Assembly: GCA_030041005.1 (NCBI GenBank)
Contig: JASHOR010000104.1
Location: 1 to 55,219, forward strand
Direction of reading: 5' to 3'
From: Xanthobacteraceae bacterium
Lineage (GTDB): Bacteria; Pseudomonadota; Alphaproteobacteria; Rhizobiales; Xanthobacteraceae
DNA: 55,219 nucleotides
The number at the start of each line of letters is the position of its first letter. Position 1 is the stretch's first letter. Shown in pieces: positions 5,780 to 52,151 of the stretch. The notes under the pieces are model-generated. The model worked only from the letters and a program-made list of their open reading frames with translations, ran no database searches and was not told the origin of the DNA. The translations under genes and the position numbers were made by a program.

Positions 5780-6607
5780 TCAGTTCAGCCGCCATGCCGC
5801 AAAGGCTTGGCCGTGATCGTTCTGCGGCAGGATGGTCAGCGGCTTGCGCGCCCCGATGACGCCGAGCAGCGCAATCCAGTTGAGCAATTCGCCGCCGATA
5901 TTGCCGGCGCGCAGCATCCGCGCCGTGGTCGCCTCGGCTACCAGGTCGTCGATCCGCATGGCGGCGAGCCTATCCTGCACGTGCTGCGACCATTGTGGAT
6001 CCGGCGTGCAGGCGGCGCGGTCACCGATCGGAATTTTCGGTCCACCGATCTCCAGTGAAAAGCTGCCGCTGCCGATGACGGCAACACGCAAGCGCTCGGG
6101 CCACTCGCCGACCGCCGCGCGCACCGCCTCGCCGAGCGCGAAACAGCGCCTTGCCGTCGGCAACGGCGGGGCCAAGCAATTGATGAAGATCGGCAGCACC
6201 GGGATGCTCATGTCCGGAGTCACAAAATGTAGCGGCACCATCACGGCGTGATCGACTTCGAAGTCCTGCACCAGCGCAATGTCGAAGCCGCGCTCAATGG
6301 CGGCCTGGCGGATGTGCGCCGCCAGCGCTCCCGGCACCGCAACCCTGTAGCGCGGCATCGGCGTTTGATCGTTCGGCCCGGCCGTTGCTTCCGCAATGCC
6401 GATCGCGAAGGTGGGAAAATTATCGAGGAAAAAGGTGTTGAAATGATCGTCGGTGAAGATCAGCAGTACATCGGGGGCGGCCTCCTCGATGTGCCTTGCC
6501 ATCTCGGCATAAAAGCGGGCGGTCTCGCATTGCGGTCCGTGGCGCAGCACCAGTGCCGGAGAGCCCGGATTGTGCGGCATGCCGAACCCGGCAACGATTT
6601 CGGCCAT
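5780..6607 (-). CDS. LigB-like catalytic subunit of class III extradiol dioxygenase
   Basis: A 275-residue cytosolic Fe(II) dioxygenase subunit. The expected iron ligands are present: His12 (GMPHNPG), His55 (DDHFN) and Glu240 (GGELLNW), matching His12, His61 and Glu242 of LigB. The segment that in LigB holds the acid/base His195 (GTGGMSH) reads GSGSFSLEIGG here, so that His is Leu. This points to a LigB subgroup with another substrate or mechanism rather than a plain protocatechuate or gallate dioxygenase. The gene is paired with a LigA-type gene. Ring cleavage of a catechol-type acid is the family function; the true substrate is not readable. Confidence 0.84.
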   Translation of the reverse strand: MAEIVAGFGMPHNPGSPALVLRHGPQCETARFYAEMARHIEEAAPDVLLIFTDDHFNTFFLDNFPTFAIGIAEATAGPNDQTPMPRYRVAVPGALAAHIRQAAIERGFDIALVQDFEVDHAVMVPLHFVTPDMSIPVLPIFINCLAPPLPTARRCFALGEAVRAAVGEWPERLRVAVIGSGSFSLEIGGPKIPIGDRAACTPDPQWSQHVQDRLAAMRIDDLVAEATTARMLRAGNIGGELLNWIALLGVIGARKPLTILPQNDHGQAFAAWRLN

Positions 6608-11414: not shown

Positions 11415-12251
11415 TCACAGCCGAATCTCACCGAGACTGACGCTGGCTCCGAGATTCGCTTCCAGCGTCTTCGACCGCCCGCTGGAAAAAATCTGCACTG
11501 TATAGCGCCCGGAGTTCTCCTCGAGCTTATCGAACTTGAAGTCGCCGTAATTGTCGGTCGTGGTCACCCCGACCGACGTGCCCTCCCTGAGGAGCTGGAC
11601 GCTGGCTCCTTCCACGCAATCGACCACGCCGTTCCTTTCCTCTGAGACGGTGCCGCCGATGAAACATTTCGAATAGCGCCACAGGTTGCGATAATAAATG
11701 CGCGGCTTGGCTCCAAGCTCCGGCTTCATGACTTCGAGGCCTTGGTCCCGCGCGAGGCGCGCCATGTCCTCGTCCTCGACCTTGATCGCACGCATGGCGC
11801 CTGTCGGACAGGATTGCTGCCCGCGCGTCTGCTGCCAGCCCTGATCGAGCAGGTGGGCGTCGAAGGTCCAGGCTTGCGGCACTTGCAACTCTTCGTTCCA
11901 CCAGATGTGACCGTACGGACAGGCATCGACGAGCCGCTTCTGGCCCTTCGCCTTCACCGGGTCGATGAGCACGATGCCGTCCGGCCGCTTCTTGATGGCG
12001 CCGCCCGTGTCGGCCTTCATGCAGGGGGCGTCATCGCAATGGTTACACATCGTGGGAACGTAGGCGATGTCGATCATCGGCATCTGTCCGCGCTCCTTCT
12101 GCAGAATGTTGATCCACTTGTGCCCGTGCCGCGGCATCGGCGCCGAATAGCCGGGCCAGTCGTTGCCGACATATTCGTCCATCGCGGCGAGCGTACACAG
12201 ATTGCAATTAGTGCACTCGGCCACGTCGATGATCAGGTTCCATTTTTGCAT
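11415..12251 (-). CDS. iron-sulfur subunit of transhydroxylase/hydroxylase-type Mo enzyme
   Basis: A 278-residue electron-transfer subunit, partner of the Mo subunit encoded upstream. The ferredoxin part (1-155) holds Cys13, 16, 19, then 69, 72, 77, 111 and 148. One usual cluster Cys is Asp81 and another is Ala, so fewer cubanes than in NrfC-type proteins are expected. The last 70 residues (EGASVQLL...TDNYGDFKFDKL) form a transthyretin-like beta domain. This layout, ferredoxin plus transthyretin-like domain, is that of the small subunit of pyrogallol-phloroglucinol transhydroxylase as I remember it. The start at 12251 gives MQKWNLIIDV. The frame upstream runs into a repeat element and is not coding. 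Confidence 0.88.
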   Translation of the reverse strand: MQKWNLIIDVAECTNCNLCTLAAMDEYVGNDWPGYSAPMPRHGHKWINILQKERGQMPMIDIAYVPTMCNHCDDAPCMKADTGGAIKKRPDGIVLIDPVKAKGQKRLVDACPYGHIWWNEELQVPQAWTFDAHLLDQGWQQTRGQQSCPTGAMRAIKVEDEDMARLARDQGLEVMKPELGAKPRIYYRNLWRYSKCFIGGTVSEERNGVVDCVEGASVQLLREGTSVGVTTTDNYGDFKFDKLEENSGRYTVQIFSSGRSKTLEANLGASVSLGEIRL

Positions 12252-12274
12252 TGTTCTTTTACTCCGCCTCTTAC

Positions 12275-12378
12275 CGTCACCCTGAGGTGCGAGCGCAGCG
12301 AGCCTCGAAGGGCGACGGCCCCTGCGCCTGAGCAGCATCCTTCGAGAGCCGCGCTATGCGCGGCCGCCTCAGGATGAC
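12275..12378. repeat. palindromic intergenic repeat, family D copy 1
   Basis: About 104 bp with outer arms CCTGAGG / CCTCAGG and inner arms GCCTCGAAGG / CCTTCGAGAGC. Related elements are at 32444-32546, 16820-16880 and, partly, 51402-51449. It sits between the large and small subunit genes of the Mo enzyme, where it could fold in the message and set the ratio of the two subunits. Confidence 0.7.
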
Positions 12379-12385
12379 GATGCTG

Positions 12386-15300
12386 TCACTTCGCCGGCAC
12401 AAGCTGCGCTTCCTTCAGTGTACGCCTGATCTCCTGGTCCTTCTCCATGGCGGCAAACGCGGCGGAAACGTGCTCAATACGGCCATCCCACAGCTCGATC
12501 TGCACGAGCGAGTTCGACCCGGCGATCGAATGGGTCGTCTTGGTCTGGGTGCGGTGGGGCGTGAGCAGATTGAGACAACCGCCCCGGTCCACCGATTTTC
12601 CCGGCTCGCCCATCGGATCGTAGACCGCCGAGGATTCGTAGCCGTGCGCAACGCCGCGCGGCAACCGCTGCGTCGGCAGCGCCGCGCAGATCACCGCACC
12701 GCGCTCGTTGAATACCTTGACCAGATCGTGCTTGTTGATGCCGCGCTGTCTGGCGTCCTCGGCGTTGAGCCGCACGATCCAGTAATAGTAGCCGTTCACC
12801 TTGACGCGGTGATCCTCGATATTGAGCAGGAACGAATCCTTGCCGTCGCCCTGGGTGTGGAACGAATATTTGCAGTGCGGGGTGAGCAGTTGCAGCGGGT
12901 AGCGTTCGAACAACTCGCCAGAATGCGCGCCCTCCCATGACGGCTCGTATTTGACGATCGGCGGCCGTTCCACATCGTTGAAGCGCTTAAGCGAGCTGCA
13001 TTCGAACTCGAGCTTGCCGGATTGCGTCTGCAGCCCGCGCAAATATTCTTCCGTGTAGTCGGAGGGAAGCGGCTGCGCCTCGGGCACGTCCTTCTTGCGG
13101 TTCTCGAAGAACCAGCGGAACGACACCGGGGCGCGCAGCTTCTCTTTTTCCGCCGGGATCGCGAAGTAGCCGCGCCGCAAGAACTTTTTCCACGAAATGC
13201 GCTTGGGCAGGTCGGACGCCAGGAACACGCGCTTGACCCAGTCAATCTCGTTGACGCCTTCGGAGAAATAATTGGCGAGCCCGAGCGGCTTGCACAGCTC
13301 GTTGAAGATCCAGAAATCCGATTTCGATTCGCCGAGCGGCTCGATCGCCGGCGCCTGGAAAACAACGACGCGGTGATTGAGCTGCTGCTGGCCGTGATGG
13401 CCGTAGCCGCCGAGCCCGGCCCATTCGGAAATGTCGGTGCGCTCGAAATTGGTGCAGGCGGGCAGGATCACATCGGCGAACTTGGCTTCGCCCTCGAACC
13501 AGATCGACTGGTTGACGACGAATTCAAGATTCGGCGACTGATACATCCGCACCCAGCGGTTGGTGTTGTTCATCGTCGCGAGGATCGAGCCGCCGTATTT
13601 GTACAGCATGTGCACCGGCGAATGGCCCGGCGCCGGGTAGGCGAAACGCGCGAACTGGTGCTCGATCGACTTGCCGACCCACGGATAGCCCTCGGCTTTT
13701 CCGTCGATGATCGCCTCGGGCACGAAGATACGCGGGATGCGCTGGCCGTTCGAATTCATGCTCGGCAATTGCGGCATGCGCTGATAGAGCTCGACCGGCA
13801 TGGCCGTGTTTTCCAGATCGCCCGACATGCCGCCGTCGGCGTAGCCGGGGAAATAGAAATTAAAGTCGAGCGGCGTACCCCATTGCAGATTGCCCATGTT
13901 GACGCCGGGCTTGCCCAGCCCCTGCATGCCGACAAGGCAGACCATAACCCGCGCCCATTGGATGCCGGTCTGGTTGCGGCAGGCGCCGCCGTGCCCGTTG
14001 CCCCAGCCGCCGGGCGCCAGATAGACGCGCTTGCGCCCCCATTCGCGCGCCAGCGCGCGCACGTCCTTGGCGGGGACGCCGGTTTCTTTCTCTTGCCACT
14101 CCGGCGTCTTCGCGATCCCGTCTTCCTCGCCGAGCAGATAAGCTTTCCACTTGTCGAAGCCGACGGTGTGGGTCTTCACATAATCCTTGTCGTAGAGGTC
14201 TTCCTTGATCCACACGTAGGCGATCGCCATCGCCATCGCGACCGAGGTGGTCGGCTTCGGCGCAAACCATTTGCCGGGCAGGAATTGCGCCGAGGCGTTG
14301 TAGTAGGGGTCGACGTGAACAATCTTGATACCGAGCTTGGGATTCTTCAGCCATTGCCGGCGTGTGGTGCCTTCCTGCGCCCCGTACGATCCTGACGTCG
14401 ATTCCGGATCGGCCGCCCAGTGCACGATCATGTCGCAGTTCTGCAGGCAATCCTCAACCGTACCATAGGTTTCCGATTGGCCGACGCGCAGCGTATAGCC
14501 CCAATGGTGCACAGCGCCCCAATACCAGCCTTCCCATGAATCCGGATTGTGGTGGATGCGGGTCATGCCGACCGCGTTGGCAAAGCGGAACAGCGCCGAG
14601 AGGTAATAGCCGATATTGCCCCAGGTATGATGCGAGCCGTGCGAGAAGGTGATGGCGCCAGGACCGTATTCGCGCTTCTGCCGCTTGATCTCGTCGGTGA
14701 CGAGCTTGATCGCCTCCTCCCAGGAGATACGCACGTAGCCGGACTTGCCGCGGTTCTGCGGATTGCGCTCCCCGTTCGGATCGAAGTCGACGCGCTTCAT
14801 CGGATGGAGCAGGCGGTCCGGGGAGTAGATCATCGACTTCACGTTCTGGCCGTGCGGCGCCAGCGTGGTCTTGCGCGGCGGCGTCAACTTCACGCCCCTG
14901 GCCTCGATGGTCCACGATGCCCCGTCCTCTTCGGTCAGATCGATCGGCGTCATCCGTACGATCTTGCCGTCGCGCACATAGACGAAGACCGGACCGCCGC
15001 TCGTCATGTTGCAATAGCGCATCATGCCGTCGGGCATTTTGGTGCCGTATTTGAGGCTGGCCGATTGTGCCGCCATCAGCGTCTGCGCAAACCAGTTGGT
15101 CAGCCACTCTTCGCCCTCGACGGTGAGCACAAAGTCCTTCTGCGCGTTGATCTGGTCGAGCCAGTTGATCGGCGGCGTCAGCAGCGCGGCGCCGATTTCG
15201 GCGTTTTTGAACATCAGCTTGATGTCGGGCTTTTGATGCAGCCCGGCGCGCGAGGTGATTTTGCCGTCGCGCAGTTCGATCCAGCGGCCGATCTCCTCGT

Positions 15301-15436
15301 CCCGCGCCAGTATCTGGGCGACCAGATTGTGCTCGCGCAGGCGCGCCTTGAAAGCCGGATTGCGGCGAGCAGCCACTCGCAGGAGTTGCGCCGCGCCGAA
15401 AATGATGAGCGGAAATCTGACCTGGGCGAGCGCCAT
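12386..15436 (-). CDS. Mo-bisMGD large subunit, pyrogallol transhydroxylase / resorcinol hydroxylase type, with SCP2-like N-terminus
   Basis: A 1016-residue DMSO-reductase-family subunit. The ATG at 15436 was chosen for its AGGAG site. Residues about 130-1016 follow pyrogallol transhydroxylase: His269 (GSHHTWGN), Asp299-Ser300 (NPDSWEGW) and Tyr528 (NFYFPG) match, from memory, catalytic His144, Asp174, Mo ligand Ser175 and Tyr404 of the Pelobacter enzyme, with constant spacing. There is no N-terminal Fe-S motif, as in that family. Residues about 35-125 are an extra domain resembling SCP2 lipid-binding proteins ([26 protein letters not shown]). There is no Tat signal, so it should be cytoplasmic. 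The reaction could be hydroxyl transfer to pyrogallol or hydroxylation of resorcinol; sequence alone does not decide. Confidence 0.9.
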
Positions 15437-15686
15437 GGCGTCCTCCTGCATTTCATGTGTCGCAACGCGCGCGGGACCTCGCCATCAGCGGGCGAGTTCG
15501 CCACCGCGCAGGCCGTGCGCAACGGCCGATTTTGCAACAATTCCGCTGTGATTGAAACCACTTCCATCCACCGTGCGGCGAGCGGTGTCTTATGCCGCGA
15601 CACGTGGCCATTGCCTCGGTCTGGCCACGGACTCCCACACATATCGGGGCTATTCGTGCTTCGGGTTCCTGCCCAGAGGTGTCGCG

Positions 15687-15833
15687 GTCAAACTTAGGCA
15701 CGTCGCCATCGTGGTTCCGGACCTCGAAAAGGCCGCGGCCTTCGGTGAAGGCGACTTCGGGCTTCGTGACCGAGCGCGGCTGGAGCTCGACGGATTGATC
15801 GAAGGCGCCAAAGGCGCCCTCGCGGTACGCCGC
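15687..15833 (+). pseudogene. remnant of a VOC (glyoxalase-like) gene
   Basis: A start-less fragment reading KLRHVAIVVPDLEKAAAF, which is the classical first beta-alpha unit of a vicinal-oxygen-chelate domain, followed by DFGLRD. The similarity then fades and no second metal-binding half follows. There is GTC where a start codon would be. It lies in the 405-base gap between the Mo enzyme gene and the convergent hydroxyacid dehydrogenase gene. I take it as a decayed gene or recombination scar. The rest of the gap (15437-15686) holds only the Mo enzyme leader. Confidence 0.5.
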
Positions 15834-15841
15834 CTGCGCGG

Positions 15842-16783
15842 CTACCGCGTAACGATATTGCGCATCTCGCTCCGGCGGCCCGCCAGAAAAAGCCGCATGT
15901 TGCCGATCACGAGCGGCATGATCAGTTCTTCGTATTCGACGATGTAGCCACCGACGTTGGGGGTGATGAACACGTTCGGGAGCTCCCACAACGGGTTGCT
16001 CGGCGGCAATGGCGTTTGTTGAAACACGTCGAGTCCGGCGCCGCTGATCCGCTGCTCACGCAGAGCGGCGACCAGTGCGGCCTCGTCGACCGTCTGACCG
16101 CGTCCGCCGTTGATGAAATAAGCGGTCGGCTTCATGGCAGCAAAGACGTCGGCGTCGAACAGGCCGAAGTTTTCCGCGCTCGCCGGCAACACGTTGATCA
16201 GATAATCGGCGCGGCGCGCGGCGTCGACGAGCCGATCGGTCGGCATCATGTCGTCGAACCCGGCGACGGCGCGCGGCGTGCGGGTGACGCCGATGACGCG
16301 CATGCCGAGCGCCTGCAAAAGTTCGCCGATGGCGATGCCGACAACGCCGATACCCACGATCACCGCCGTCTTGCCGTCAAGCGTGCTCCACAGCCGCCGC
16401 TCCCAGACATGCGCCTTCTTGTCCGCGACGTGGCGTGCCGCATCGCGACTTACCGCCATCATCAGATACACGATCTCCTCCCGCATCGCCGGTCCATGAA
16501 TGCCGCGCCCGCTGGTGAGGAGCGTTTCCGGCCCGAGCGACGGGCAGTGCAGAAAATGATCGACGCCGGTCGCCAGCGATTGAATCCATTGCAGCCGCGT
16601 CGCGCGCCGAAGTATCGAGTCTTCGACCGCGATACCGAAGCAGATCAGCACGTCGATGTCAGACAGATTGCCGGCTGCCTCGACGGCGCTGTGAAACAGC
16701 GCGAATTCCAGTGCGGGAAATTCCGCACGCAACCGGTCGCGGTATGTCTCGGCGTGAATATCAACGATGAGGACTTTGGTCAT
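15842..16783 (-). CDS. D-2-hydroxyacid dehydrogenase family protein with altered active site
   Basis: A 313-residue protein with the family's two-domain layout and dinucleotide motif GIGVVG at 144-149. Of the catalytic triad, Arg228 (NGGRGQ) is present, but the Glu of the usual DVFxxEP motif is Thr257 (DVFQQTP) and the His of TPH-x-GG is Asn276 (TPNVGG). Normal hydride transfer from a 2-hydroxyacid is therefore doubtful. The coding frame is intact and of normal length, so this is not simple decay. The gene lies ahead of the Mo enzyme genes on the same strand and after the decarboxylase-like gene; a shared catabolic role is inferred. Confidence 0.83.
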   Translation of the reverse strand: MTKVLIVDIHAETYRDRLRAEFPALEFALFHSAVEAAGNLSDIDVLICFGIAVEDSILRRATRLQWIQSLATGVDHFLHCPSLGPETLLTSGRGIHGPAMREEIVYLMMAVSRDAARHVADKKAHVWERRLWSTLDGKTAVIVGIGVVGIAIGELLQALGMRVIGVTRTPRAVAGFDDMMPTDRLVDAARRADYLINVLPASAENFGLFDADVFAAMKPTAYFINGGRGQTVDEAALVAALREQRISGAGLDVFQQTPLPPSNPLWELPNVFITPNVGGYIVEYEELIMPLVIGNMRLFLAGRRSEMRNIVTR

Positions 16784-16819
16784 GGAAACTTCCGTTCCTT
16801 CGGCCGCGCGAAGCGCCGC

Positions 16820-16880
16820 GCCCTCGAAGAACCGTCATTCCTTCGAGGCGCGCTGCTGGCACGCTCCTCAGCATGAGGCA
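16820..16880. repeat. palindromic intergenic repeat, family D (short copy)
   Basis: Contains CCCTCGAAG / CTTCGAGGCGCG and a right end GCTCCTCAGCATGAGG like the other D copies, but is shortened. It overlaps the last codons of the amidohydrolase gene, so the element end is part of that coding sequence. Confidence 0.5.
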
Positions 16881-17830
16881 TTGAGGCCGAGATATCTCGC
16901 CGCGTTGTTGAACGCGATATTGGTCCGCAGCGACTCAGTGAGTGGCGCGTGATCAAGAAATTCGCCGGCCTCCGGCGCGGACTCGAACGGATAGTCGGCG
17001 GCGAACATCACTCGCTCCGACCCAAGCGCGGCGAGCGCGCAATTGAGGGGCTCGGCCGAGCACATGCCGGACGTGGTCACCATGATGTTTTGCTTGATGT
17101 AGTCGGAAGGCGCCTTGGCGAGCTTGATGCCATAAAGCTTGGCGCGGCTGTCGAAACGCCAGAGCAGAAAAGGCAGCGTTTCGCCGAGATGGCCGAGCAT
17201 TACCTTGGCCCCAGGAAAGCGGTCGAAATGTCCGCTGAACACGAGCCGCAGCGCATGCGAACCGGTCTCGAAGCCCCATTCCCAGGTGGCGCGGCGCAGA
17301 CCGGCGACGCCTTCGAGTGCTGGCGAGGGCGCGACCGGATCGGTCGGGTGAATATAGATCGGCGCGCTCAGCGCCTCGGCGCGCTCCCAGAATGCATAAA
17401 GCGAGGGGTGATCGAGATACTGGCCGTTGGTATGGCCGTTGACCATGGCGCCGCAGAACTTGAGCTCGCGGATGCAGCGCTCCAGTTCGTCGGCAGCGCC
17501 GCGCGCGTCCTGCATCGCCAGATGGGCGAAGCCGGAATAGCGATCGGGACGCTTCTGCACTTCACCGGCCAGATAATCGTTCGCGGCCCGCGCCGCGCGG
17601 GTAGCAGTCGCCACATCGCGTTCGCTCTGCACGCCAGGGCCGGCTATGGCGAGCACCGAGCGGGCGATGCCGGCTTCATCCATCGACTTGAGCCGCATTT
17701 CGCCGAAATCGGTGAGGCGAGCGAGCAAATCGCTTGCCAGCTCGGGGGCGACGTTGCCGACCGTCGACCGCCAATAGCCCTCATAGCCGGGAGCCAGAAA
17801 ATGTTCCTCGAGCGCAATTTTTTGCACCAT
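16868..17830 (-). CDS. amidohydrolase, gamma-resorcylate / dihydroxybenzoate decarboxylase-like
   Basis: A 320-residue TIM-barrel metal enzyme of the amidohydrolase-2 (ACMSD) family. The closest look-alike I know is gamma-resorcylate (2,6-dihydroxybenzoate) decarboxylase: it begins with KIALEEHF, and Glu8, His10, His161, His214 and Asp279 (AADYPFE) fit its Zn ligands and catalytic His. Such enzymes remove the carboxyl group from hydroxylated benzoates without a redox cofactor. The start at 17830 was chosen for GGGGA seven bases upstream. It is near the Mo enzyme genes on the same strand, so decarboxylation of a hydroxybenzoate to the Mo enzyme's phenol substrate is a reasonable inference. Confidence 0.86.
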   Translation of the reverse strand: MVQKIALEEHFLAPGYEGYWRSTVGNVAPELASDLLARLTDFGEMRLKSMDEAGIARSVLAIAGPGVQSERDVATATRAARAANDYLAGEVQKRPDRYSGFAHLAMQDARGAADELERCIRELKFCGAMVNGHTNGQYLDHPSLYAFWERAEALSAPIYIHPTDPVAPSPALEGVAGLRRATWEWGFETGSHALRLVFSGHFDRFPGAKVMLGHLGETLPFLLWRFDSRAKLYGIKLAKAPSDYIKQNIMVTTSGMCSAEPLNCALAALGSERVMFAADYPFESAPEAGEFLDHAPLTESLRTNIAFNNAARYLGLNASC

Positions 17831-17995
17831 GTGTTTCCCCATTGCATGCATTGCCGTATGCGACGCGGCGCGCGGCGGCGGACGGCTCGATCCGGATTGC
17901 CGCCCATCGAGAGAGACGGTGCGCCACTCCCTCTTCAACCGCGCGGCGCCGATACCGGAGACACAAAACGTCGATTGGTCTATAGCCGATATCCG

Positions 17996-18025
17996 GTTCA
18001 ATGGTATACCGCTCAATGCTATAAG
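17996..18025 (+). promoter_or_regulatory. possible promoter with tandem direct repeat
   Basis: In the AT-rich centre of the divergent gap 17831-18060 there are two 13-base near-repeats, GTTCAATGGTATA (17996) and GCTCAATGCTATA (18011), 15 bases apart. The second runs into TATAAG (18020-18025), a good -10 box; TTCAAT sits 17 bases upstream as a weak -35. The tandem spacing would suit a regulator binding site overlapping the promoter of the cyclase operon. Visual call only. Confidence 0.3.
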
Positions 18026-18060
18026 AATTGCAGCACTTGGCGTGCGAAGGGAGATTGCGC

Positions 18061-18906
18061 GTGGTCAAGAAAATCCGCGGCGTCGCGATGGAGGAAAACC
18101 TCAACAATTCGATGGGGCTTGAATTCTACAACCTGTCCCATCGGTTCGGTTATCAGTCGCCGAACTGGCCTTATTTCGAAGACGTCAAGATCGAGCGCAT
18201 CCACTACATGGCGAAGTCGGGCGTATTGTCGCAGCGCATCACCACCTCCATGCACAATACGACGCACATCGATGCTCCCGCGCACGTCGTGCAGGGCCTG
18301 CCCTTCATCGACGAGGTGCCGTTGCCGCATTTCTTCGGTTCCGGCATCGTGGTGTCGATCCCGAAAAAGAAATGGGAGCAGATCACCTATGACGATCTGG
18401 AGAAAGCCGCCGGCAAAATCGTGCAGCCGCGCGACGTGGTGATCGTCAATACCGGCTGGCACAAGCTCTACGAAGACAGCGAGGACTATTTCTGCTACGC
18501 GCCCGGCTTCGTGCCTTCGGCCGGCGAGTGGTTCGTCGAGAAGAAGGTGAAGGTGGTGGGCCACGACACCCAGGCGAACGATCACCCGCTCGCCACCGCC
18601 ATCGGTCCGCAACGCAATGGTCCGCTCCATCCGCACCTCGCCGCCGAATACAAAAAATGGTCCGGTGGACGCGATTGGAAGGAGGACTTTCCGGACTGGG
18701 AACCGGTCCATCGCATCCTGTTCAAGAACGGCATTCTGGGCATTGAGAACGTCGGCGGCGACATCGACAAGGTGACCGGAAGGCGTTGCACGTTTGCGCT
18801 GTTTCCGTGGAATTGGGAACGCGGCGACGGCTGCATCATTCGCCTGGTGGCGATCATCGACCCGAAGGGGGCCTATCGGATCGAGAAAGGGGAGAAGTTT
18901 GCATGA
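18061..18906 (+). CDS. cyclase-family metal-dependent hydrolase
   Basis: A 281-residue protein of the cyclase / kynurenine-formamidase-like family (Mn or Zn hydrolases, including isatin hydrolase). The metal motif is MHNTTHIDAPAHV at about residues 72-84, a variant of H-x-G-T-H-x-D-x-P-x-H. The GTG at 18061 was chosen because AAGGGAGA precedes it; the ATG at 18088 is possible. It is the first gene of a four-gene operon: its stop overlaps the cupin start (ATGA), and an SDR and a hydroxyacyl-CoA-dehydrogenase-like gene follow. Hydrolytic opening of a reduced ring or lactone/amide is the family chemistry; a dihydrophloroglucinol-type substrate is my hypothesis. Confidence 0.86.
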   Translation: MVKKIRGVAMEENLNNSMGLEFYNLSHRFGYQSPNWPYFEDVKIERIHYMAKSGVLSQRITTSMHNTTHIDAPAHVVQGLPFIDEVPLPHFFGSGIVVSIPKKKWEQITYDDLEKAAGKIVQPRDVVIVNTGWHKLYEDSEDYFCYAPGFVPSAGEWFVEKKVKVVGHDTQANDHPLATAIGPQRNGPLHPHLAAEYKKWSGGRDWKEDFPDWEPVHRILFKNGILGIENVGGDIDKVTGRRCTFALFPWNWERGDGCIIRLVAIIDPKGAYRIEKGEKFA

Positions 18907-19241
18907 TCGTGCGGAGATTCTCGGAAGCAAAGCCATACGAAGCGCCCAACCACCGCGACTACAAGTCGTTTCGCGTGTACGGCGCCGAGATGGGCGGCTC
19001 GCAGACTCTGGTGTTCGGTATTTCGCATTTTCTCCCCGGCGGCGGCGCCGGTCCCGATGCCTCCCCGCCTGAGAAGATCTACTACGTGCTCGCCGGCGAA
19101 CTCACGGTGATAGTCGGCGGCAAGGAGACGGTCGCGCGCGCCGGCGACAGCGTCTATATCGGCCCCAATGAGAGCCGGGAGATCATCAACCGATCGAACG
19201 AGGTTTGCACCATCGCGGTGGCGGTGGCGCCGGTGAAATGA
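18903..19241 (+). CDS. cupin domain protein
   Basis: A single-domain beta-barrel protein of 112 residues. It has both cupin motifs in shortened form, around LPGGGAGPDASPPEKIYYVLAGE and GDSVYIGPNESREIIN. The usual motif-1 histidines are largely absent (PGGGAGPDA instead of H-x-H), so metal binding is uncertain. The ATG at 18903 overlaps the stop of the cyclase gene by four bases, which implies coupled translation and a related role, perhaps as an isomerase or small accessory protein of the hydrolase. Confidence 0.84.
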   Translation: MIVRRFSEAKPYEAPNHRDYKSFRVYGAEMGGSQTLVFGISHFLPGGGAGPDASPPEKIYYVLAGELTVIVGGKETVARAGDSVYIGPNESREIINRSNEVCTIAVAVAPVK

Positions 19242-19246
19242 ATTCA

Positions 19247-19270
19247 CCTCTCCCCGCGAGCGGGGAGAGG
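19247..19270. repeat. intercistronic hairpin
   Basis: A perfect 10-bp stem, CCTCTCCCCG / CGGGGAGAGG, around the loop CGAG. It lies between the cupin and SDR genes, 15 bases ahead of the SDR start, and could stabilise or attenuate the operon message. Similar hairpins occur at 20185-20205 and 47809-47827. Confidence 0.65.
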
Positions 19271-19285
19271 CAGTAGAGGCCCATC

Positions 19286-20092
19286 ATGCCCGACGAAGAC
19301 TTCCTGAAAAACCCGCTGTCCCTGTTCGACGTGCGCGGGAAAACAGCGATCATCACCGGAGCGACCGGCGCCTTCGGTGCGCTCGCGGCGCGAGTGCTGG
19401 CCGGCGCGGGCTGCAACCTCGTGCTCTCAGCAGGCGGCACCGAGTCTTTGAAGAAGATCGCGACCGAATGCGAAGAACTTGGCGCCAAAGTCGAGGCGGT
19501 CAATATGCGCCCAACCTCCGCGGCGGTCTGCGACAAGATCGTCGAGACGGCAGTCAAGCGGTTTGGCGGCGTCGATATTTTGGTGTGCGCGTCGGGCATC
19601 AACAAGGTGCAGAAAATCGTCGATCAGGCGCCGGAAGCGTTTTCCGAAGTGATGGATGTGAACGTCACTCAATCCTGGCTGATTGCGCGCGCCGCGGGCA
19701 AGCAGATGCTGGCGCAAGGCCGCGGCGGCAAGGTGATCCTGATGTCGTCAGCGCGCGGGCTCCTTGGCCATCCGGCCGGCTACACCGCATACTGCTCCTC
19801 CAAGTCGGCGATCGACGGCATGACCAAGGCGCTCGGCTGTGAATGGGGCGATACAGGCATCACCGTCAATGCCATCGGCCCAACGGTATTTCGTTCTCCG
19901 CTCACCGCCTGGATGTACGAAGACAACGAACGCTCGACCGCAGTGCGCAAGGGCTTTCTCTCGCGTGTGCCGAAAGGCCGGCTTGGCGAGCCATCGGACC
20001 TTGCCGGCCCCCTGCTCTTTCTCGCTTCCAAAGCATCGGACTTTTATACCGGCCACGTTCTCTACGCGGACGGCGGCTACACGGCAGGGTGA
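19286..20092 (+). CDS. short-chain dehydrogenase/reductase
   Basis: A 268-residue classical SDR. The cofactor motif is TGATGAFG (about 29-36), followed by an ASG motif in place of NNAG, and an intact active site with Ser (MSSARG) and Tyr-x3-Lys (YCSSK, about 172-176). The C-terminal YADGGYTAG is typical. The protein reduces or oxidises a ketone/alcohol with NAD(P)H in the cytosol. Operon position between the cyclase/cupin pair and a hydroxyacyl-CoA-dehydrogenase-like gene suggests action on a cyclic or linear beta-keto intermediate. A phloroglucinol-reductase-like role is conceivable, not shown. Confidence 0.88.
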   Translation: MPDEDFLKNPLSLFDVRGKTAIITGATGAFGALAARVLAGAGCNLVLSAGGTESLKKIATECEELGAKVEAVNMRPTSAAVCDKIVETAVKRFGGVDILVCASGINKVQKIVDQAPEAFSEVMDVNVTQSWLIARAAGKQMLAQGRGGKVILMSSARGLLGHPAGYTAYCSSKSAIDGMTKALGCEWGDTGITVNAIGPTVFRSPLTAWMYEDNERSTAVRKGFLSRVPKGRLGEPSDLAGPLLFLASKASDFYTGHVLYADGGYTAG

Positions 20093-20140
20093 CTCCGTTC
20101 CGGCGCAATTCATGATGAGTGGATCGACTCTCACCTTGAT

Positions 20141-20205
20141 CCTCCGTCTTTCTGGAGGAGGAAAGAGCAAGCGACTTGCATTTTCCTCTCCCTGGAGGGG
20201 AGAGG
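20141..20205. repeat. two short hairpins between SDR and dehydrogenase genes
   Basis: CCTCC / GGAGG at 20141-20158 and CCTCTCCC / GGGAGAGG at 20185-20205 (loop TGGAG). They occupy the 134-base intercistronic space and belong to the same loose family as the hairpin at 19247-19270. Confidence 0.55.
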
Positions 20206-20226
20206 ATCATTGTATTTTGGCCAGTC

Positions 20227-21132
20227 ATGTCCGCCAAGGCTGAGATCGCCGTCATCGGCGCCGGCTTGATGGGCCACGGCATCGCCCAGGTATTTGCGCT
20301 TGCCGGCCACCAAGTGACGATCACCGATACCCTGGTCCAGAATCTTGATACGGCGAAATCGCGCATTGCCGCCAACCTGCGCGATCTCGGTGACGACGAG
20401 GGCGCCGTCGAGCGCGTGCAGCCATGCTTCGATCTCGGCGACGCCGTCCATCACGCCGACTATGTTGTCGAAGCGGTATCGGAGAATTTGCCGCTGAAGC
20501 AGAAGCTGTTCGGCGAGATCGAACGCCACGTGCGGCCCGATACGATTCTTGCAAGCAACACCTCAGTGATCCCGATCACTGCAATCATGCAGGGACTGCA
20601 AAGACGCGAGCGCGCGCTCGGGACCCACTGGTGGAACCCGCCATTCCTGGTGCCGTTGGTCGAGGTCATCGAGACGCAATGGACGTCGCCGCAAGCGGTG
20701 GCCTGGACCATGGACCTGCATCGCGCCGCCGGAAAAAAGCCTGCGCACGTAAAAAAGGACGTGCCGGGCTTCATCGGCAATCGGTTGCAGCATGCGCTTT
20801 GGCGCGAAGCGATTGCGCTGGTGGAAAACGGCATCTGCGATGCCGAAACGGTCGATGCCGTGATCAAGGCCTCATTCGGCCGCCGCATCGCCGTGCTTGG
20901 TCCGCTTGAGAATGCGGACCTCGTCGGCACCGATCTCACGCTTGCCATCCATGAGACGGTACTGCCGGCGATCGACAGCCGGCCGGGCCCTTCACCGTAT
21001 CTGAAAAAACTGGTGGCCGACGGCAAGCTTGGTTTCAAGTCCGGCGAGGGCTTCCGCAGGTGGAGCGCCGAAGAGCAGGCCGCCTTGCGCGCCAAGGTGT
21101 TCGCGCACCTCAAGGCAACGCGGAACGCCTGA
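20227..21132 (+). CDS. 3-hydroxyacyl-CoA dehydrogenase family protein
   Basis: A 301-residue NAD-dependent dehydrogenase. The Rossmann motif is GAGLMGHG (11-18); an SNTS segment, the catalytic His in GTHWWNPP and the KDVPGFIGNR hinge follow, and the C-terminal helical dimerisation domain is complete. The usual HFFNPP reads HWWNPP, as in subgroups acting on non-CoA acids (lambda-crystallin or carnitine dehydrogenase-like). The start at 20227 gives MSAKAEIAVIG. It is the last gene of the cyclase operon. Oxidation of a 3-hydroxy acid made by ring opening would fit this position; that is inference. Confidence 0.88.
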   Translation: MSAKAEIAVIGAGLMGHGIAQVFALAGHQVTITDTLVQNLDTAKSRIAANLRDLGDDEGAVERVQPCFDLGDAVHHADYVVEAVSENLPLKQKLFGEIERHVRPDTILASNTSVIPITAIMQGLQRRERALGTHWWNPPFLVPLVEVIETQWTSPQAVAWTMDLHRAAGKKPAHVKKDVPGFIGNRLQHALWREAIALVENGICDAETVDAVIKASFGRRIAVLGPLENADLVGTDLTLAIHETVLPAIDSRPGPSPYLKKLVADGKLGFKSGEGFRRWSAEEQAALRAKVFAHLKATRNA

Positions 21133-21223
21133 TCCAATTCAACTGAATCGGATCAGGATCTGGATTTTTCATTTGAGCATGATCTTGTCCGAAAATCGGT
21201 TTCCGCTTTTCGGGATCATGCTC
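21131..21223. repeat. double palindrome of the GAGCATGATC type
   Basis: Two adjacent inverted repeats: GATCCAATTCA / TGAATCGGATC at 21131-21154 and GAGCATGATC / GATCATGCTC at 21175-21223, the latter around TTGTCCGAAAATCGG. The second is a repeat I know as very common in Bradyrhizobium/Rhodopseudomonas-type genomes. It lies between convergent genes and its right end touches the stop of the minus-strand monooxygenase. It probably works as a bidirectional terminator. Confidence 0.8.
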
Positions 21224-22248
21224 TAAACGACGGCCGGCTCGCCGATCGTGCGCAGCGCCGGCATGACTTCGCTGGCGAACAGCTCGATGGAATGCAGCGC
21301 CTCGTCGAGCGTCATGTCGCCGAACGCGAATTGGCCGACGACGTAATTGCAGCCGGTTTCGGCAAGCTGCGCAGCCAGTAGATCCCGCACCGTCGCCGGC
21401 GAACCGGCAAGGCCTTGCCCGCGCGCCATCAGCGGTTCGAACTCCTCCGGACGCGGATGCGTCTGCGCGCGCCCACTCAGTCGCGACAGATAAATGAAGC
21501 TGTCAAACCAAGGTCGGTAGGCGCGCCTGGCGAGCCGCATCGCCTGCGCATCGGTCTCGCCCACGACGATGAAACGCCCAAGGCCGATCTTTGGCGACGG
21601 AGCGTCTCCGTGCGTCTCTCGCCAGGTCTTGCGGTAGCTGGCGACGGTGCCGCGAATGTGGTCGGTCGGATCGAGATTGATGATGTTGAGCGCTTTCCGC
21701 GCGGCCCGTGCCGCGCTGTCCGGCGCGTGGGCGCCGTACCAGATCGGCGGATGCGGCTTTTGCAGCGGCGAAAGCTCCATCGGTACGTTGTCGAAGGAAA
21801 AATGCTTGCCGTGAAAATCGAGCGTCTTGTGCGTGAGACCATTTAGGATCACTTCGACGGCCTCGTTGTATATCTCCTGCGCTGTCGTTGGGTCGGCGCC
21901 GAAAAAAGCAAGCTCGACCGGCGAAGCACCACGGCCGAAGCTGAGCTCGAGCCTGCCGCCGCTCATCTGGTCGAGCATGCAGATTTCGGAGATCAGCCGC
22001 AGCGGATGATAAAGCGGTACGACGAACACCATCGGGCCGAAGCGCAGCCGGCGCGTGCGCTGCGCCAAGGCGGCGAGAAACACGTTCGGCGACGGCGCCA
22101 TGCCGAGCGGTGTCGAATGGTGTTCGGCGAGGTGATAGGCGTAGAAGCCGGCGCGGTCGTAGGCTTCGGCGATTTTCAGGCGGTCTTCGTAGAACTCCGG
22201 CAGCGGTCTGCCGGCGCAGTCGAGGTGATCGAAGATGCCGAAGTCCAT
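21223..22248 (-). CDS. LLM-class flavin-dependent monooxygenase
   Basis: A 341-residue luciferase-like TIM-barrel oxidoreductase. Family traits are AYHLAEHHSTP near residue 40, FGPMVFVVPLYHPLR, MSGGRLELSFGRG and KPHPPIWYGAH. These enzymes use reduced FMN supplied by a separate reductase to hydroxylate or cleave C-S, C-N or aromatic substrates. The start at 22248 (MDFGIFDHLD) matches the family N-terminus. It is the last gene of a three-gene minus-strand run with MmgE/PrpD and a BphC-type dioxygenase. A second, only distantly similar LLM protein is at 50365. Substrate unknown. Confidence 0.87.
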   Translation of the reverse strand: MDFGIFDHLDCAGRPLPEFYEDRLKIAEAYDRAGFYAYHLAEHHSTPLGMAPSPNVFLAALAQRTRRLRFGPMVFVVPLYHPLRLISEICMLDQMSGGRLELSFGRGASPVELAFFGADPTTAQEIYNEAVEVILNGLTHKTLDFHGKHFSFDNVPMELSPLQKPHPPIWYGAHAPDSAARAARKALNIINLDPTDHIRGTVASYRKTWRETHGDAPSPKIGLGRFIVVGETDAQAMRLARRAYRPWFDSFIYLSRLSGRAQTHPRPEEFEPLMARGQGLAGSPATVRDLLAAQLAETGCNYVVGQFAFGDMTLDEALHSIELFASEVMPALRTIGEPAVV

Positions 22249-22315
22249 TTTGTCCGTCCTTGTGGGCGAACGACTGTAGCCGGGATAAAGCGAAGCGCAA
22301 TGACGTCGTCGCTGG

Positions 22316-23713
22316 TCAGGCGCGCAATAACGCAATCAGCTCGCGGCTGTCGGCCAGCTTTTCGAGCCCGATTACCGCGCCGACCAGCGCATCCTGACGC
22401 TTCTTCCCCATGACGCCGCCCGTCAGCTTGCGGAATTTCCCGACAACGTCGTCGGCGCTGGCGAAGGATCGTTCGCTGCCGCGGGGAGCTTCCCGCGTCT
22501 CGGTTTCGACCGAGCCGCCTCGGAAATGGATGTCGACCCGCACCTTGTGGCGATAAGCGGCGCCGAGCGCAGTGATCGCCGGATCGTGTACGACTTTCAC
22601 TTTTCGCGAAAGCTCGATGCGCGCCTCGTCGTTGACGCAATCCGGCGTGAACTCGTCGACGAACACGTCGCCCTTGAGCAAGAGCGTGGCAACGCAAAAC
22701 GGCATGTTGAGCTGCGCCGCCGTCAGTCCCTGCGGCTCATAGGGCCAGCCGACGTGATCGACGGTGACCTGCGAGCCGTGTACGACGATCTCTTCGATCT
22801 CGTCGAGCGCGAACGGCCGGCGCTTGCGGATGTCGCGTATGGCGTCGAGCGTGGTGTGATTGGAACCTACGCAGGAATAGAATTTCAGCGCAATACCCAT
22901 GGTCTCGAAGCGCTCGCCGAGGCCGGCGCTCAGTTCGGCCAGATTGAAGCGGTCCTGCGAGCGTGAGAACGTCGTGCAGAAGCCGCCATAAGGCGCCTCG
23001 AACACATCGACGATGCCGGTAAATCCGTTTTGCGCCAAAAGCGCAGCGTAAAGCCCGCTCTGCGCCGCGCGGCCGGCATGCATTCGCTTGACCATGGCGC
23101 CGTATTGCGCAGCCATCAGACCGCAGGACTGGGTGCCGGCGATACCGAGCGCGTGCACGGTTTTCTCCGCGTCGAGCGACAGTGCACGCGCCGCGGCGGC
23201 TGCAGCGGAGAAAACTCCGACGGTCGCGCCCGAATGCCAGCCTTGGCCGATGTGCTCCTGGCCCATGCACAACCCGACGCGCGGGCCGATCTCGTAGCCC
23301 GCGATGGCAGCGGCGAGGAAATCGCGGCCGGAGAGCTGAGCGTGGCTTTCCGCCACCGCGATCAGCGCCGGCAGCGTCACGGCGCCGACATGCAGCACCG
23401 CCTTGCGGTGCACGTCGTCGAGCTCGAAGCCCTGCACCTGCGTGCCGTTGACGAGCGCCGCATGCGACGAGGACAGTCGAGCGTTACTGCCCCAGATCGA
23501 GGTGGTGCGCGTCGTATCGAGTTTTTCCAATGTGCCGCGCAGGATGCGACACCATTGCAGATCGGCCCCGTAGATGGCGCAGCCGAGCGAATCGAGCATG
23601 AGGAGCTTTATCCGCTCGCGGACTTCAGCGGGTATCCGCTCGTAGGTCAGATGCGATACGAACTGGGCAATCGCGCGCGTGTGGGGATTGTCGGTCTTGG
23701 CGTGCGCGTCCAT
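22316..23713 (-). CDS. MmgE/PrpD family protein
   Basis: A 465-residue protein of the 2-methylcitrate dehydratase / cis-aconitate decarboxylase fold. Typical blocks are HAALVNGTQVQGFELDD, the SGRDFLAAAIAGYE segment, HSGATVGVF, KRMHAGRAAQSGL and KFYSCVGSNHT. The start at 23713 was chosen over 23731 because GAAGGCGAG precedes it. Members dehydrate or decarboxylate tricarboxylic or similar acids; many catabolic islands carry one of unknown substrate. It lies between the dioxygenase and LLM genes, so it may act on a ring-cleavage product. Confidence 0.87.
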   Translation of the reverse strand: MDAHAKTDNPHTRAIAQFVSHLTYERIPAEVRERIKLLMLDSLGCAIYGADLQWCRILRGTLEKLDTTRTTSIWGSNARLSSSHAALVNGTQVQGFELDDVHRKAVLHVGAVTLPALIAVAESHAQLSGRDFLAAAIAGYEIGPRVGLCMGQEHIGQGWHSGATVGVFSAAAAAARALSLDAEKTVHALGIAGTQSCGLMAAQYGAMVKRMHAGRAAQSGLYAALLAQNGFTGIVDVFEAPYGGFCTTFSRSQDRFNLAELSAGLGERFETMGIALKFYSCVGSNHTTLDAIRDIRKRRPFALDEIEEIVVHGSQVTVDHVGWPYEPQGLTAAQLNMPFCVATLLLKGDVFVDEFTPDCVNDEARIELSRKVKVVHDPAITALGAAYRHKVRVDIHFRGGSVETETREAPRGSERSFASADDVVGKFRKLTGGVMGKKRQDALVGAVIGLEKLADSRELIALLRA

Positions 23714-23847
23714 GGCTCGCCTTCGCTTCATGCAGCAGTCTGGACGATCTGTTCAAATCTTTTAGAACTGCACATCCGAGCGGATGATCCAATAACCCTA
23801 CAGCGCACGATCTCACGAGATTGAGGTCGGAATAACCGAGATCGGGG

Positions 23848-24882
23848 TCACTGCGCGGCAATCTTCGCCTTGGTAGCATCCCACCACGGGCAGACACCGG
23901 CCATGACCTGATAATTGCCCTCCATCACCTGCACCGGGCGGCGGTAGCCTTCTGCGGCATTCTTCAGCCGCAGCGCGCGCGCCTTCTCATTGTCCTCCTT
24001 CGATAACCAGACGCGATCGTGGCCCCACATGCTGGGACCCTCCTTGCGCTCGGTTGCTCTCCAAGTGTCGACATCGATCGAGCGCGCGCCCCAGCCGTAC
24101 TCGACCATAAAGCCGGACGGCGTAAAGCTGTAGAACGAGGTGATGAAGTCGCTGGTGTGACGGCCGAGCGTCACGCCCACCCTGCCCTCTTCTCCAAGCG
24201 CGAGATCGTAGGCCTGTCCCACATCGTCGAAGCTGTAAAGCTCCATCATGATGTGGTGCACCGCATTCTTGCCCGTCTGAATAAAGGCGAGGCTGTGATG
24301 TCGGGCATTGACATGTAAAAAGCGGGCGACGAAGGGGTGATCGTAATAGTCCGTGAGGCGGAAGCCGAGCGTGTCACGATAAAACGCCATTAGGCGTTCG
24401 ATGGTTTCCCGGCTGTCAACGTTGAGAACGACGTGGCCGAGGCCAAGCGGGCCGGTGCGGAAGCCGGAGATCGAGCGACCGGGCCTGAACGGCTCGTTCG
24501 CGGTTTCGGCGCCGTAAAAGAATTCCAGCCGATTGCCGACCGGATCGATAAGCATGATCAAAGCCTTGACGCGGCGCTCGTCGGCGAGCGCACCGGAGCC
24601 GCGCACAACGCTGATCTGCGCGGCCTCCAGACGGGCAGCCAGCGCATCGAGTGCTGCCGCATCGGCGACCTCCCAACCGAAGAACGAAATGCCGTCACCG
24701 CCGTCGGCTTCGACGATAATGCGCTGCCGGCGGTCGTCCATGCGAAAGGCGAGCGCCGATCGGGATTTATCGACTCGTTGCAGGCCGAGAAGGCCCGAGC
24801 CATAGCTCGCCCAGTCGCCCAAATCCTTGGCGCGAACTCCGATGTAGCCCAAGGCTCGCGGGGCCAAAGCCGGCATTGTCAT
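23848..24882 (-). CDS. class I (VOC) extradiol dioxygenase, BphC-like
   Basis: A 344-residue two-domain vicinal-oxygen-chelate dioxygenase. The iron ligands are intact at almost BphC numbering: His150 (GLGHVVLN), His210 (VHHIMMEL) and Glu261 (MVEYGWG). The second-sphere histidines (RHH at 195-196, GRHTSDF at 242) are also there. It should be an active Fe(II) meta-cleavage enzyme for a catechol-type ring. The start at 24882 has GAGG upstream. The MmgE/PrpD and LLM genes follow on the same strand. An unusually long C-terminal tail of about 65 residues follows the second domain. Confidence 0.88.
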   Translation of the reverse strand: MTMPALAPRALGYIGVRAKDLGDWASYGSGLLGLQRVDKSRSALAFRMDDRRQRIIVEADGGDGISFFGWEVADAAALDALAARLEAAQISVVRGSGALADERRVKALIMLIDPVGNRLEFFYGAETANEPFRPGRSISGFRTGPLGLGHVVLNVDSRETIERLMAFYRDTLGFRLTDYYDHPFVARFLHVNARHHSLAFIQTGKNAVHHIMMELYSFDDVGQAYDLALGEEGRVGVTLGRHTSDFITSFYSFTPSGFMVEYGWGARSIDVDTWRATERKEGPSMWGHDRVWLSKEDNEKARALRLKNAAEGYRRPVQVMEGNYQVMAGVCPWWDATKAKIAAQ

Positions 24883-25003
24883 CACCAACCTCGTTGCCGT
24901 CGTTGCCGGCTTATTTACACGAGCGGCGCCGTCGTTGGAACGGCCCCGTCTCAAACGGGCCCGGTTTCATCGCCTTGACAGCGTCATTTTGCGCTTTCTA
25001 CCT

Positions 25004-33459: not shown

Positions 33460-33542
33460 GATGTAGGGTGGACTAACGAAGCGTAATCCGCTGCCCTCGT
33501 CAAACGGCAGGTTACGGGCTGCGCGCGAACCCGCCCTACATC
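33460..33542. repeat. palindromic repeat, family F copy 1
   Basis: The ends GATGTAGGG / CCCTACATC are inverted, with AACGAAGCGTAATCCGC and GGTTACGGGC inside. The right end overlaps the stop codon of the molybdopterin oxidoreductase gene. A related copy in the same orientation is at 35647-35719, on the other side of that gene. Confidence 0.7.
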
Positions 33543-51396: not shown

Positions 51397-51401
51397 AGGT
51401 G

Positions 51402-51449
51402 TCGCCCGTCACCCTTCGAGGCTCGCTGCGTTCGCACGGCAGTATGACG
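51402..51449. repeat. partial family D repeat
   Basis: Contains GTCACCCTTCGAGGCTCGCTGCG and an imperfect right part (CAGTATGACGG), a reduced version of the elements at 12275 and 32444. It lies between the LLM and CoA-transferase genes. Confidence 0.45.
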
Positions 51450-51457
51450 GATCGGGC

Positions 51458-52141: not shown

Positions 52142-52151
52142 GGAAGACATC

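Follow-up and report, generated by a model that had tools for sequence, protein, structure and literature searches.

The closest described counterpart of the system considered here is the reductive phloroglucinol cluster of Clostridium scatologenes and Eubacterium ramulus, for which PMC10470551 gives a phloroglucinol reductase (PGR), a dihydrophloroglucinol cyclohydrolase (DPGC), a triacetate-forming dehydrogenase (TfD) and a triacetate acetoacetate-lyase (TAL). Gene sets of this kind, which open the ring of phloroglucinol, a phenol of plants, are familiar from anaerobes of the gut; the same paper, published in 2023, already reports a phloroglucinol cluster in Mesorhizobium loti, a Bradyrhizobium sp., marine alpha- and gammaproteobacteria and Mycobacterium. 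Molybdenum (Mo) enzymes of the pyrogallol-phloroglucinol transhydroxylase type have, in the literature searched, been described from fermenting anaerobes and inferred fermenters; two transhydroxylase operons were reported in sediment Chloroflexi genomes (PMC3971608), and a Rhodopseudomonas palustris strain is described as having no homologs of documented pyrogallol pathways (PMC12366328). The stretch analysed in the current work, referred to as the window, is the entire 55,219 nucleotide contig C149 (JASHOR010000104.1) of a Xanthobacteraceae bacterium (genome G000; 4.9 Mb in 188 contigs), and between positions 11415 and 21132 it carries homologs of PGR, DPGC and TfD in a plus-strand operon, next to divergent genes for a transhydroxylase-type Mo enzyme and a decarboxylase. 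This interval probably represents a reductive phloroglucinol operon together with divergent genes, those of the Mo enzyme included, that would supply it with phloroglucinol. Gene identities, clades, synteny and conserved residues were read from sequence, and from these we infer every substrate, the parts played by a small cupin and a D-2-hydroxyacid dehydrogenase, and the place of the Mo enzyme in the pathway. The reductive operon is well supported by such evidence and is already known in such bacteria, so that the suggestion of the earlier note on this DNA, namely that the ring-opening route would be new for an alphaproteobacterium, has been overtaken by the clusters published for Mesorhizobium loti, Bradyrhizobium sp. 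and marine alphaproteobacteria (PMC10470551). The new part appears to be the linkage of a transhydroxylase-type Mo enzyme to a PGR operon, with a function that is a reasonable deduction; the mostly open-access abstracts and passages searched contained no description of an alphaproteobacterium in which a transhydroxylase gene adjoins a PGR operon, and an earlier report is possible.

As in the clostridial cluster, the PGR, DPGC and TfD homologs of the window are adjacent, and the motifs WPYF (DPGC), FRS (PGR) and QHALWREA (TfD) are common to both. The clostridial clusters differ from the window in that identities are 34-46%, the window operon is without a TAL gene, its PGR is without TGRN and its TAL candidate has Ile for Trp; the window host, unlike the clostridial comparison system, has COX1-family genes. 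With gene starts set inside the longest open reading frames (ORFs) and guided by the starts of relatives, the plus-strand operon comprises a cyclase-family gene (18061-18906, Pfam Cyclase 114.9 bits), a small cupin of 112 residues (18903-19241, Cupin_2 3.7e-14), a short-chain dehydrogenase/reductase gene (SDR; 19286-20092) and a 3HCDH-family 3-hydroxyacyl-CoA dehydrogenase gene (HCDH; 20227-21132), the last being the predicted (S)-3-hydroxy-5-oxohexanoate (triacetate-forming) dehydrogenase. ORF calls and Pfam recovered every gene named in the earlier note at the positions it gave, and two that it had left unnamed, the cupin and a minus-strand D-isomer-specific 2-hydroxyacid dehydrogenase (15842-16783, Pfam 2-Hacid_dh_C 1e-47).

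For ortholog counts and trees, rows with an in-frame stop, with less than 60% of the query length or with less than 30-34% identity (depending on the gene) were dropped, which excluded L049 (cyclase and HCDH), L042 (HCDH) and the cut cyclase of L178, and the clostridial rows in these comparisons represent 11 of 80 loci plus Acetoanaerobium (L051). The window cyclase harbours the cyclase-family metal motif HNTTHIDAPAHV and lies in a clade of clostridial operon cyclases that is split from five paralogs with a support of 100 in the Shimodaira-Hasegawa-like approximate likelihood ratio test (SH-aLRT), in a quick tree that is without isatin hydrolase and places the tandem paralogs on the DPGC side. 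It also carries WPYF, which contains the Trp and Tyr named for DPGC and which is present in 26/26 orthologs and 10/10 clostridial rows and missing from all six tandem paralog cyclases; for the characterised enzyme PMC10470551 names Trp20 and Tyr22 in the substrate pocket. By clade, synteny and residues the window cyclase is thus assigned as DPGC, with dihydrophloroglucinol as its putative substrate.

Among PDB sequences the window SDR matched best to 5g4k (170 bits, the next protein scoring 141 bits), which is labelled an SDR family protein and which we take to be a phloroglucinol reductase structure. In a quick tree with very long branches among the outgroups the window SDR and PGR (5g4k with a 99%-identical Flavonifractor plautii locus) formed a single clade, apart from other SDRs, with a support of 98 SH-aLRT for 32 rows including the window with 12 clostridial or 5g4k rows, and of 89 with Acetoanaerobium added. 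The PGR motif FRSx(L/V)(T/S)xWM is present in 11 of 12 clostridial rows and in all 31 others, and the TGRN of 5g4k in seven of the 12 and none of the 31. PMC10470551 gives the arginine motif for the NADPH 2'-phosphate as TR(S/N); as a (T/S/A)R(S/N) pattern occurred in 0/12 clostridial PGR rows, the published motif may be misplaced here. On the grounds of clade, synteny and residues the window SDR is assigned as phloroglucinol reductase, and phloroglucinol would be its substrate.

The window HCDH is 41-46% identical to its counterparts at seven of the nine clostridial loci compared and 35-36% identical at the other two, it contains the QHALWREA motif of TfD, and it retains the Ser, His and Asn of 3HCDH catalysis (NTS, THWWNP and GNRLQHALWREA being present). 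In the HCDH tree, again a quick one, it groups with operon HCDHs, split with 98 SH-aLRT from three of four paralogs of its own genome, the fourth (L192) falling inside the operon group with the tandem-cyclase type. Seven of nine clostridial rows belong to the window's 92-supported group, and the two that lie outside (L079 and L114) share a branch with four rows from same-order PGR operons. Clade, synteny and residues identify the window HCDH as TfD, and triacetate would be its product. The proposal that SDR, cyclase and HCDH are enzymes of a reductive ring-opening route is supported by trees which place them with PGR, DPGC and TfD and not with the tested paralogs. A second PGR-type cluster in the same genome was considered for a 51% identical HCDH paralog on contig C126, but was rejected, as the 14.8 kb read there gave no SDR, cyclase or cupin match. 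A sister operon with SDR and HCDH genes and with cyclases that are devoid of WPYF was observed elsewhere (L184 4600-8348, L178 1-2330, L190 6362-10093 and L050 7153-10526), with a cupin alongside in L184, L178 and L190, a tandem pair of cyclases in L184, L190 and L050 and a cut cyclase in L178; in genomes G690 and G662 it adjoins the true phloroglucinol operon, and it perhaps represents a reductive route for a different phenol.

TAL is recognised as a BKACE protein in which Trp replaces Glu14. The genome contains two BKACE genes, both on contigs other than the window, and the one on contig C106 (364 bits) is 74% identical to the BKACE that Aminobacter MSH1 and Sinorhizobium BG8 carry downstream of their PGR genes; this candidate is likely the fourth pathway enzyme. 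In the pathway proposed here PGR would reduce phloroglucinol to dihydrophloroglucinol, the ring of which would be opened by DPGC to 3-hydroxy-5-oxohexanoate; TfD would oxidise the latter to triacetate, and the BKACE-family lyase encoded on the other contig would form acetoacetate and acetoacetyl-CoA from triacetate and acetyl-CoA.

Cyclase orthologs were detected in three of 384 other genomes drawn from the same class (at least 77% identity) and in 21 of 396 others drawn from the same order (at least 76%), and 21 loci were read from the 23 ortholog-bearing genomes (G070 occurring in both draws, G423 and G496 being left out). Cyclase, cupin, SDR and HCDH occur together at all 21 loci, the HCDH being only a 33-40% relative at four of them (L177, L178, L181 and L184), and a BKACE match was found at 12. 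The same four genes are present in all eight records read from a plasmid collection (H41-H47 and H49, out of 108 records with a cyclase match), seven of these with BKACE. At clostridial PGR loci cyclase, SDR and HCDH stand together in 64 of 80 cases (28/33 where at least 20 kb was held), and the three are adjacent in E. ramulus, a genome named in PMC10470551. Owing to this recurrence the plus-strand grouping exceeds chance, and since the module is present at every one of the 21 loci and eight records it is not rare in these bacteria. The nearest named orthologs of the window cyclase (75-79% identity) are alphaproteobacterial, and cyclase-cupin-SDR-HCDH-BKACE operons with the gene order of the window were found in Aminobacter MSH1, Pacificitalea, Sinorhizobium BG8, Novosphingobium US6-1 and Rhizorhabdus RW1 (cyclase 64-79%, SDR 61-71%, HCDH 54-64% and cupin 38-55% identical to the window). 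Unlike the window, all five carry BKACE close by, and the Mo enzyme is missing from the stretch read in each; an annotated IclR regulator precedes the cyclase in three of the five, whereas none was recognised in the window.

The cupin, apart from its presence at all same-order and same-class loci and plasmid records read, is found near clostridial PGR at 50 of 80 loci (24/33 among loci holding at least 20 kb). It was observed in L042-L052 and L172-L189, and near PGR in L053, L114 and L122. It thus recurs in phloroglucinol operons across several phyla and is predicted to be a conserved component with an accessory role in the operon; the word "cupin" is absent from the main text of PMC10470551.

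The divergent, minus-strand side of the interval specifies a Mo enzyme composed of a large subunit of the Mo-bis(molybdopterin guanine dinucleotide) type (12386-15436; AhtL-like_1st 94.6 bits, Molybdopterin 100.6 bits) and a small, transhydroxylase beta-like Fe-S subunit (11415-12251; Fer4_11 66.3 bits, 3.1e-18). The large subunit, which is the sole match to PF21423 in its genome, aligns with the Pelobacter transhydroxylase 4v4c, likewise a two-subunit enzyme, at 963 bits across ORF residues 143-991 and with 52% identity over 843 aligned positions, and it keeps His144, Tyr152, Asp174, Ser175, Trp176, Tyr404 and Tyr560 of that enzyme. We take His144, Asp174 and Tyr404 to be catalytic, Ser175 to be the Mo ligand and Arg153, Trp354 and Cys557 to be further pocket residues. 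The claim that the large subunit is transhydroxylase-like therefore holds, the transhydroxylase type being supported by this comparison, and conversion of pyrogallol to phloroglucinol is its predicted activity. Unlike the Pelobacter enzyme, the large subunit has the three further pocket residues replaced and bears an additional N-terminal domain of about 140 residues (15026-15436, minus strand), an extension which alignments show to be common to the aligned relatives (the L169 row being left out) and not present in 4v4c. Searched against Pfam, the window and L005 copies of this extension gave nothing at E<=1, the L011 copy gave one match below the cut-off (PcrA_UvrD_tudor, E=0.0022), and a 13-row profile reached no PDB sequence beyond E=0.11 (8c18, fasciclin-family). 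An SCP2 identity, suggested by an impression from the letters, was not supported by the Pfam or PDB profile search, there being no SCP2 match in the genome for comparison. The window enzyme is thus assigned, from its sequence, to an N-terminally extended, pocket-changed proteobacterial branch of the transhydroxylase family. The small-subunit homolog adjoins the large subunit at 17/17 clustered loci, window included, and in the window it has a weak C-terminal match to the Ig-like CarboxypepD_reg (1.2e-6, under the family cut-off).

More distant relatives were also encountered. L013/L014 (34% identical to 4v4c) are without His144 and in a different gene context, and L023 (8891-12300) and L024 (8708-12117) contain a transhydroxylase-like pair, also 34% identical to 4v4c and without extension or His144, that was read by eye as neighbouring FAD monooxygenase, luciferase-like and MmgE/PrpD genes. 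On a Sinorhizobium terangae plasmid (L031, 12001-16415) the Mo large subunit looks interrupted, as its match falls into two parts separated by about 1.5 kb.

The Mo enzyme was found in nine of 385 genomes of the class draw (search threshold 1e-100) and in four of 397 of the order draw, its own genome being counted in both, and in eight plasmid-collection records at a minimum of 52% identity, six of which (H1-H4, H7 and H8 of the best eight) were read. With the class draw taken, from shared genome handles, to be that of the cyclase search, a genome-level association between Mo enzyme and DPGC was sought and is not shown: in the class draw, 9/385 genomes with the Mo enzyme and 4/385 with DPGC (at least 77% identity) overlap in the window's own genome alone, and in the order draw the overlap of 4/397 and 22/397 (at least 76%) consists of G000 and G483, the latter being the only one of 11 other Mo-enzyme genomes with a DPGC ortholog, on a separate contig. 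In the window the Mo large subunit gene is 2.6 kb from the PGR operon, on its divergent side, and in G298 a PGR-clade SDR gene on the same strand precedes the Mo large subunit gene by 30 bp; adjacency in both genomes supports a phloroglucinol role for the Mo enzyme.

The remaining candidate for a phloroglucinol-supplying activity is an amidohydrolase-family decarboxylase (16868-17830, minus strand; Amidohydro_2 120.6 bits), with gamma-resorcylate decarboxylase (3s4t/4qro) as its top PDB match at 230.6 bits and 41% identity (128/312 positions). It keeps E8, H10, H164, H218, R229 and D287, presumably the metal-site and catalytic residues of that enzyme. The scores of the runners-up, 5-carboxyvanillate (208.5 bits) and 2,3-dihydroxybenzoate (189.4 bits) decarboxylases, are not far under the best one, and the family match therefore does not fix the substrate. 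In genome G376 a 52% identical relative of this decarboxylase directly follows the HCDH of a PGR operon, and G376 is not among the class-draw genomes with a Mo enzyme match at 1e-100. Two parallel entries to phloroglucinol would therefore be simpler than a serial route, and it is more likely that the decarboxylase feeds phloroglucinol directly and not by way of the Mo enzyme. If the G376 enzyme feeds its operon its product should be phloroglucinol, and the simplest substrate 2,4,6-trihydroxybenzoate; the window and G376 decarboxylases may differ in substrate. According to PMC3877349, 2,4,6-trihydroxybenzoate (phloroglucinol carboxylic acid) is an intermediate of bacterial catechin breakdown. 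The divergent left-hand genes would supply phloroglucinol by two reactions: the most likely substrate of the decarboxylase is 2,4,6-trihydroxybenzoate, which would stem from flavonoid A-rings, and that of the Mo enzyme is pyrogallol, on which it would act as a transhydroxylase. Of the gene route that the earlier note had outlined, the PGR/DPGC/TfD part stands, whereas the order decarboxylase, pyrogallol, transhydroxylase has become doubtful in view of G376, where the Mo enzyme was not found, and of the scarcity of DPGC among Mo-enzyme genomes.

Several observations weigh against this assignment of the locus. In the operon, an arginine is missing from the window PGR at the TGRN site of 5g4k (SAGGTES as compared to TGRNEKK), and the TAL candidate lies outside the operon, on C106, with Ile at the Glu14-equivalent site, which is Trp in 9/9 clostridial proteins; Ile occupies this site in 13/13 BKACE copies more than 60% identical to the query. 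On the divergent side, approximately 400 bp separate the Mo large subunit gene from that of the D-2-hydroxyacid dehydrogenase, so that a single transcript for the left-hand genes is not assured, and Arg153, Trp354 and Cys557 of 4v4c correspond to Tyr, His and Leu in the window enzyme. A scan of 109 further PGR loci, of which 80 are clostridial and 29 come from proteobacterial, mycobacterial and other records, found the Mo enzyme at none and the decarboxylase at one, which is among the 21 same-order and same-class loci, and no match to a 2,4-diacetylphloroglucinol or phloretin hydrolase was obtained in the window's own genome, in a search whose controls were silent too, so that absence is not shown. 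Ten of the 11 other Mo-enzyme genomes show no DPGC ortholog (G298 has a partial 36% match), and for this reason the Mo step is not established and its substrate is putative. Only one of 16 other Mo loci (G298) has a PGR-clade SDR, while nine have a FAH-type hydrolase and five, all of them plasmid records, an acyl-CoA synthetase nearby, and VOC-family (Glyoxalase/dioxygenase-superfamily) proteins recur; the pathways therefore differ across the Mo-enzyme clade.

The same missing DPGC orthologs, together with the FAH-type and VOC neighbours, speak for an arrangement in which PGR, DPGC, TfD and the decarboxylase form one pathway, which takes 2,4,6-trihydroxybenzoate via phloroglucinol to acetyl units, whereas the Mo enzyme serves another aromatic pathway of the contig, for example one whose last step is an extradiol cleavage catalysed by the VOC dioxygenase at 23848-24954. 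A BphC-like dioxygenase is located 8.4 kb from the Mo enzyme in the window, and many other aromatic-type genes were read by eye on the contig. We regard such a division as unlikely, albeit with a real chance of being correct, for the Mo genes are close neighbours of the divergent PGR operon, the Mo gene of G298 is immediately preceded by a PGR-clade SDR, and the catalytic residues of transhydroxylase are retained. Much less probable is a single line that would use all of the genes, in which the decarboxylase forms resorcinol from gamma-resorcylate and the Mo enzyme, as a water-using hydroxylase, converts resorcinol to phloroglucinol for the PGR operon; the altered Mo pocket and the best PDB match of the decarboxylase are in keeping with this. 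We know of no resorcinol enzyme that hydroxylates at C5, and G376, despite its decarboxylase relative, is not among the Mo-enzyme genomes. The known resorcinol hydroxylase, moreover, yields hydroxyhydroquinone (PMC10100899). The least probable arrangement, by a narrow measure, is the alternative named in the earlier note, in which gamma-resorcylate is converted via resorcinol to hydroxyhydroquinone and the Mo enzyme is of the resorcinol hydroxylase type, since, for all that the decarboxylase is of the gamma-resorcylate type and the Mo genes of G483 are followed by 2-oxoacid dehydrogenase E1/E2 genes with another Mo enzyme nearby, it leaves the adjoining PGR/DPGC/TfD operon unexplained and no E1/E2 genes were noticed among the window ORFs translated and read by eye. 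The G483 arrangement (L168, 5170-18150, the other Mo enzyme being on the opposite strand) resembles the cluster for anaerobic hydroxyhydroquinone degradation in Azoarcus anaerobius.

With a reductive phloroglucinol operon supplied by divergent genes as the preferred reading, the window places a transhydroxylase-type Mo enzyme beside such an operon in a genome that also bears COX1-family genes. Three proteins of this genome score above the Pfam COX1 cut-off (560, 449 and 149 bits), a family that also includes nitric oxide reductases, and because two of the three scores are high the host likely respires oxygen. We advance as a tentative and rather doubtful extension that a bacterium with respiratory oxidases could open pyrogallol- or resorcinol-type phenols without the use of O2 on the ring, the extended transhydroxylase branch making phloroglucinol, possibly by C5 hydroxylation of resorcinol, for an operon of PGR, DPGC, TfD and a hitherto undescribed cupin. 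If the link is real, carbon from tannins and flavonoids could be mobilised reductively by bacteria of this kind, a point of relevance to the enzyme-latch hypothesis for peat. The locus also draws attention to a branch of the transhydroxylase family in proteobacteria, the substrate of which is putative.

As regards the remainder of the window, the intergenic region between the divergent decarboxylase and cyclase genes (17831-18060) is, from the gene layout, likely a candidate shared promoter region. Straight after the operon, the minus strand at 21223-24954 carries luciferase-like, MmgE/PrpD and BphC-like extradiol dioxygenase genes. Translations of the rest of the contig (25178-55219 and 2113-6607), read by eye, contain many further catabolic-type genes, such as several amidohydrolases and an MFS transporter, along with a second Mo oxidoreductase at 33541-35631, a CoA-transferase pair at 51362-52832 and a LigB-like dioxygenase at 5780-6607.

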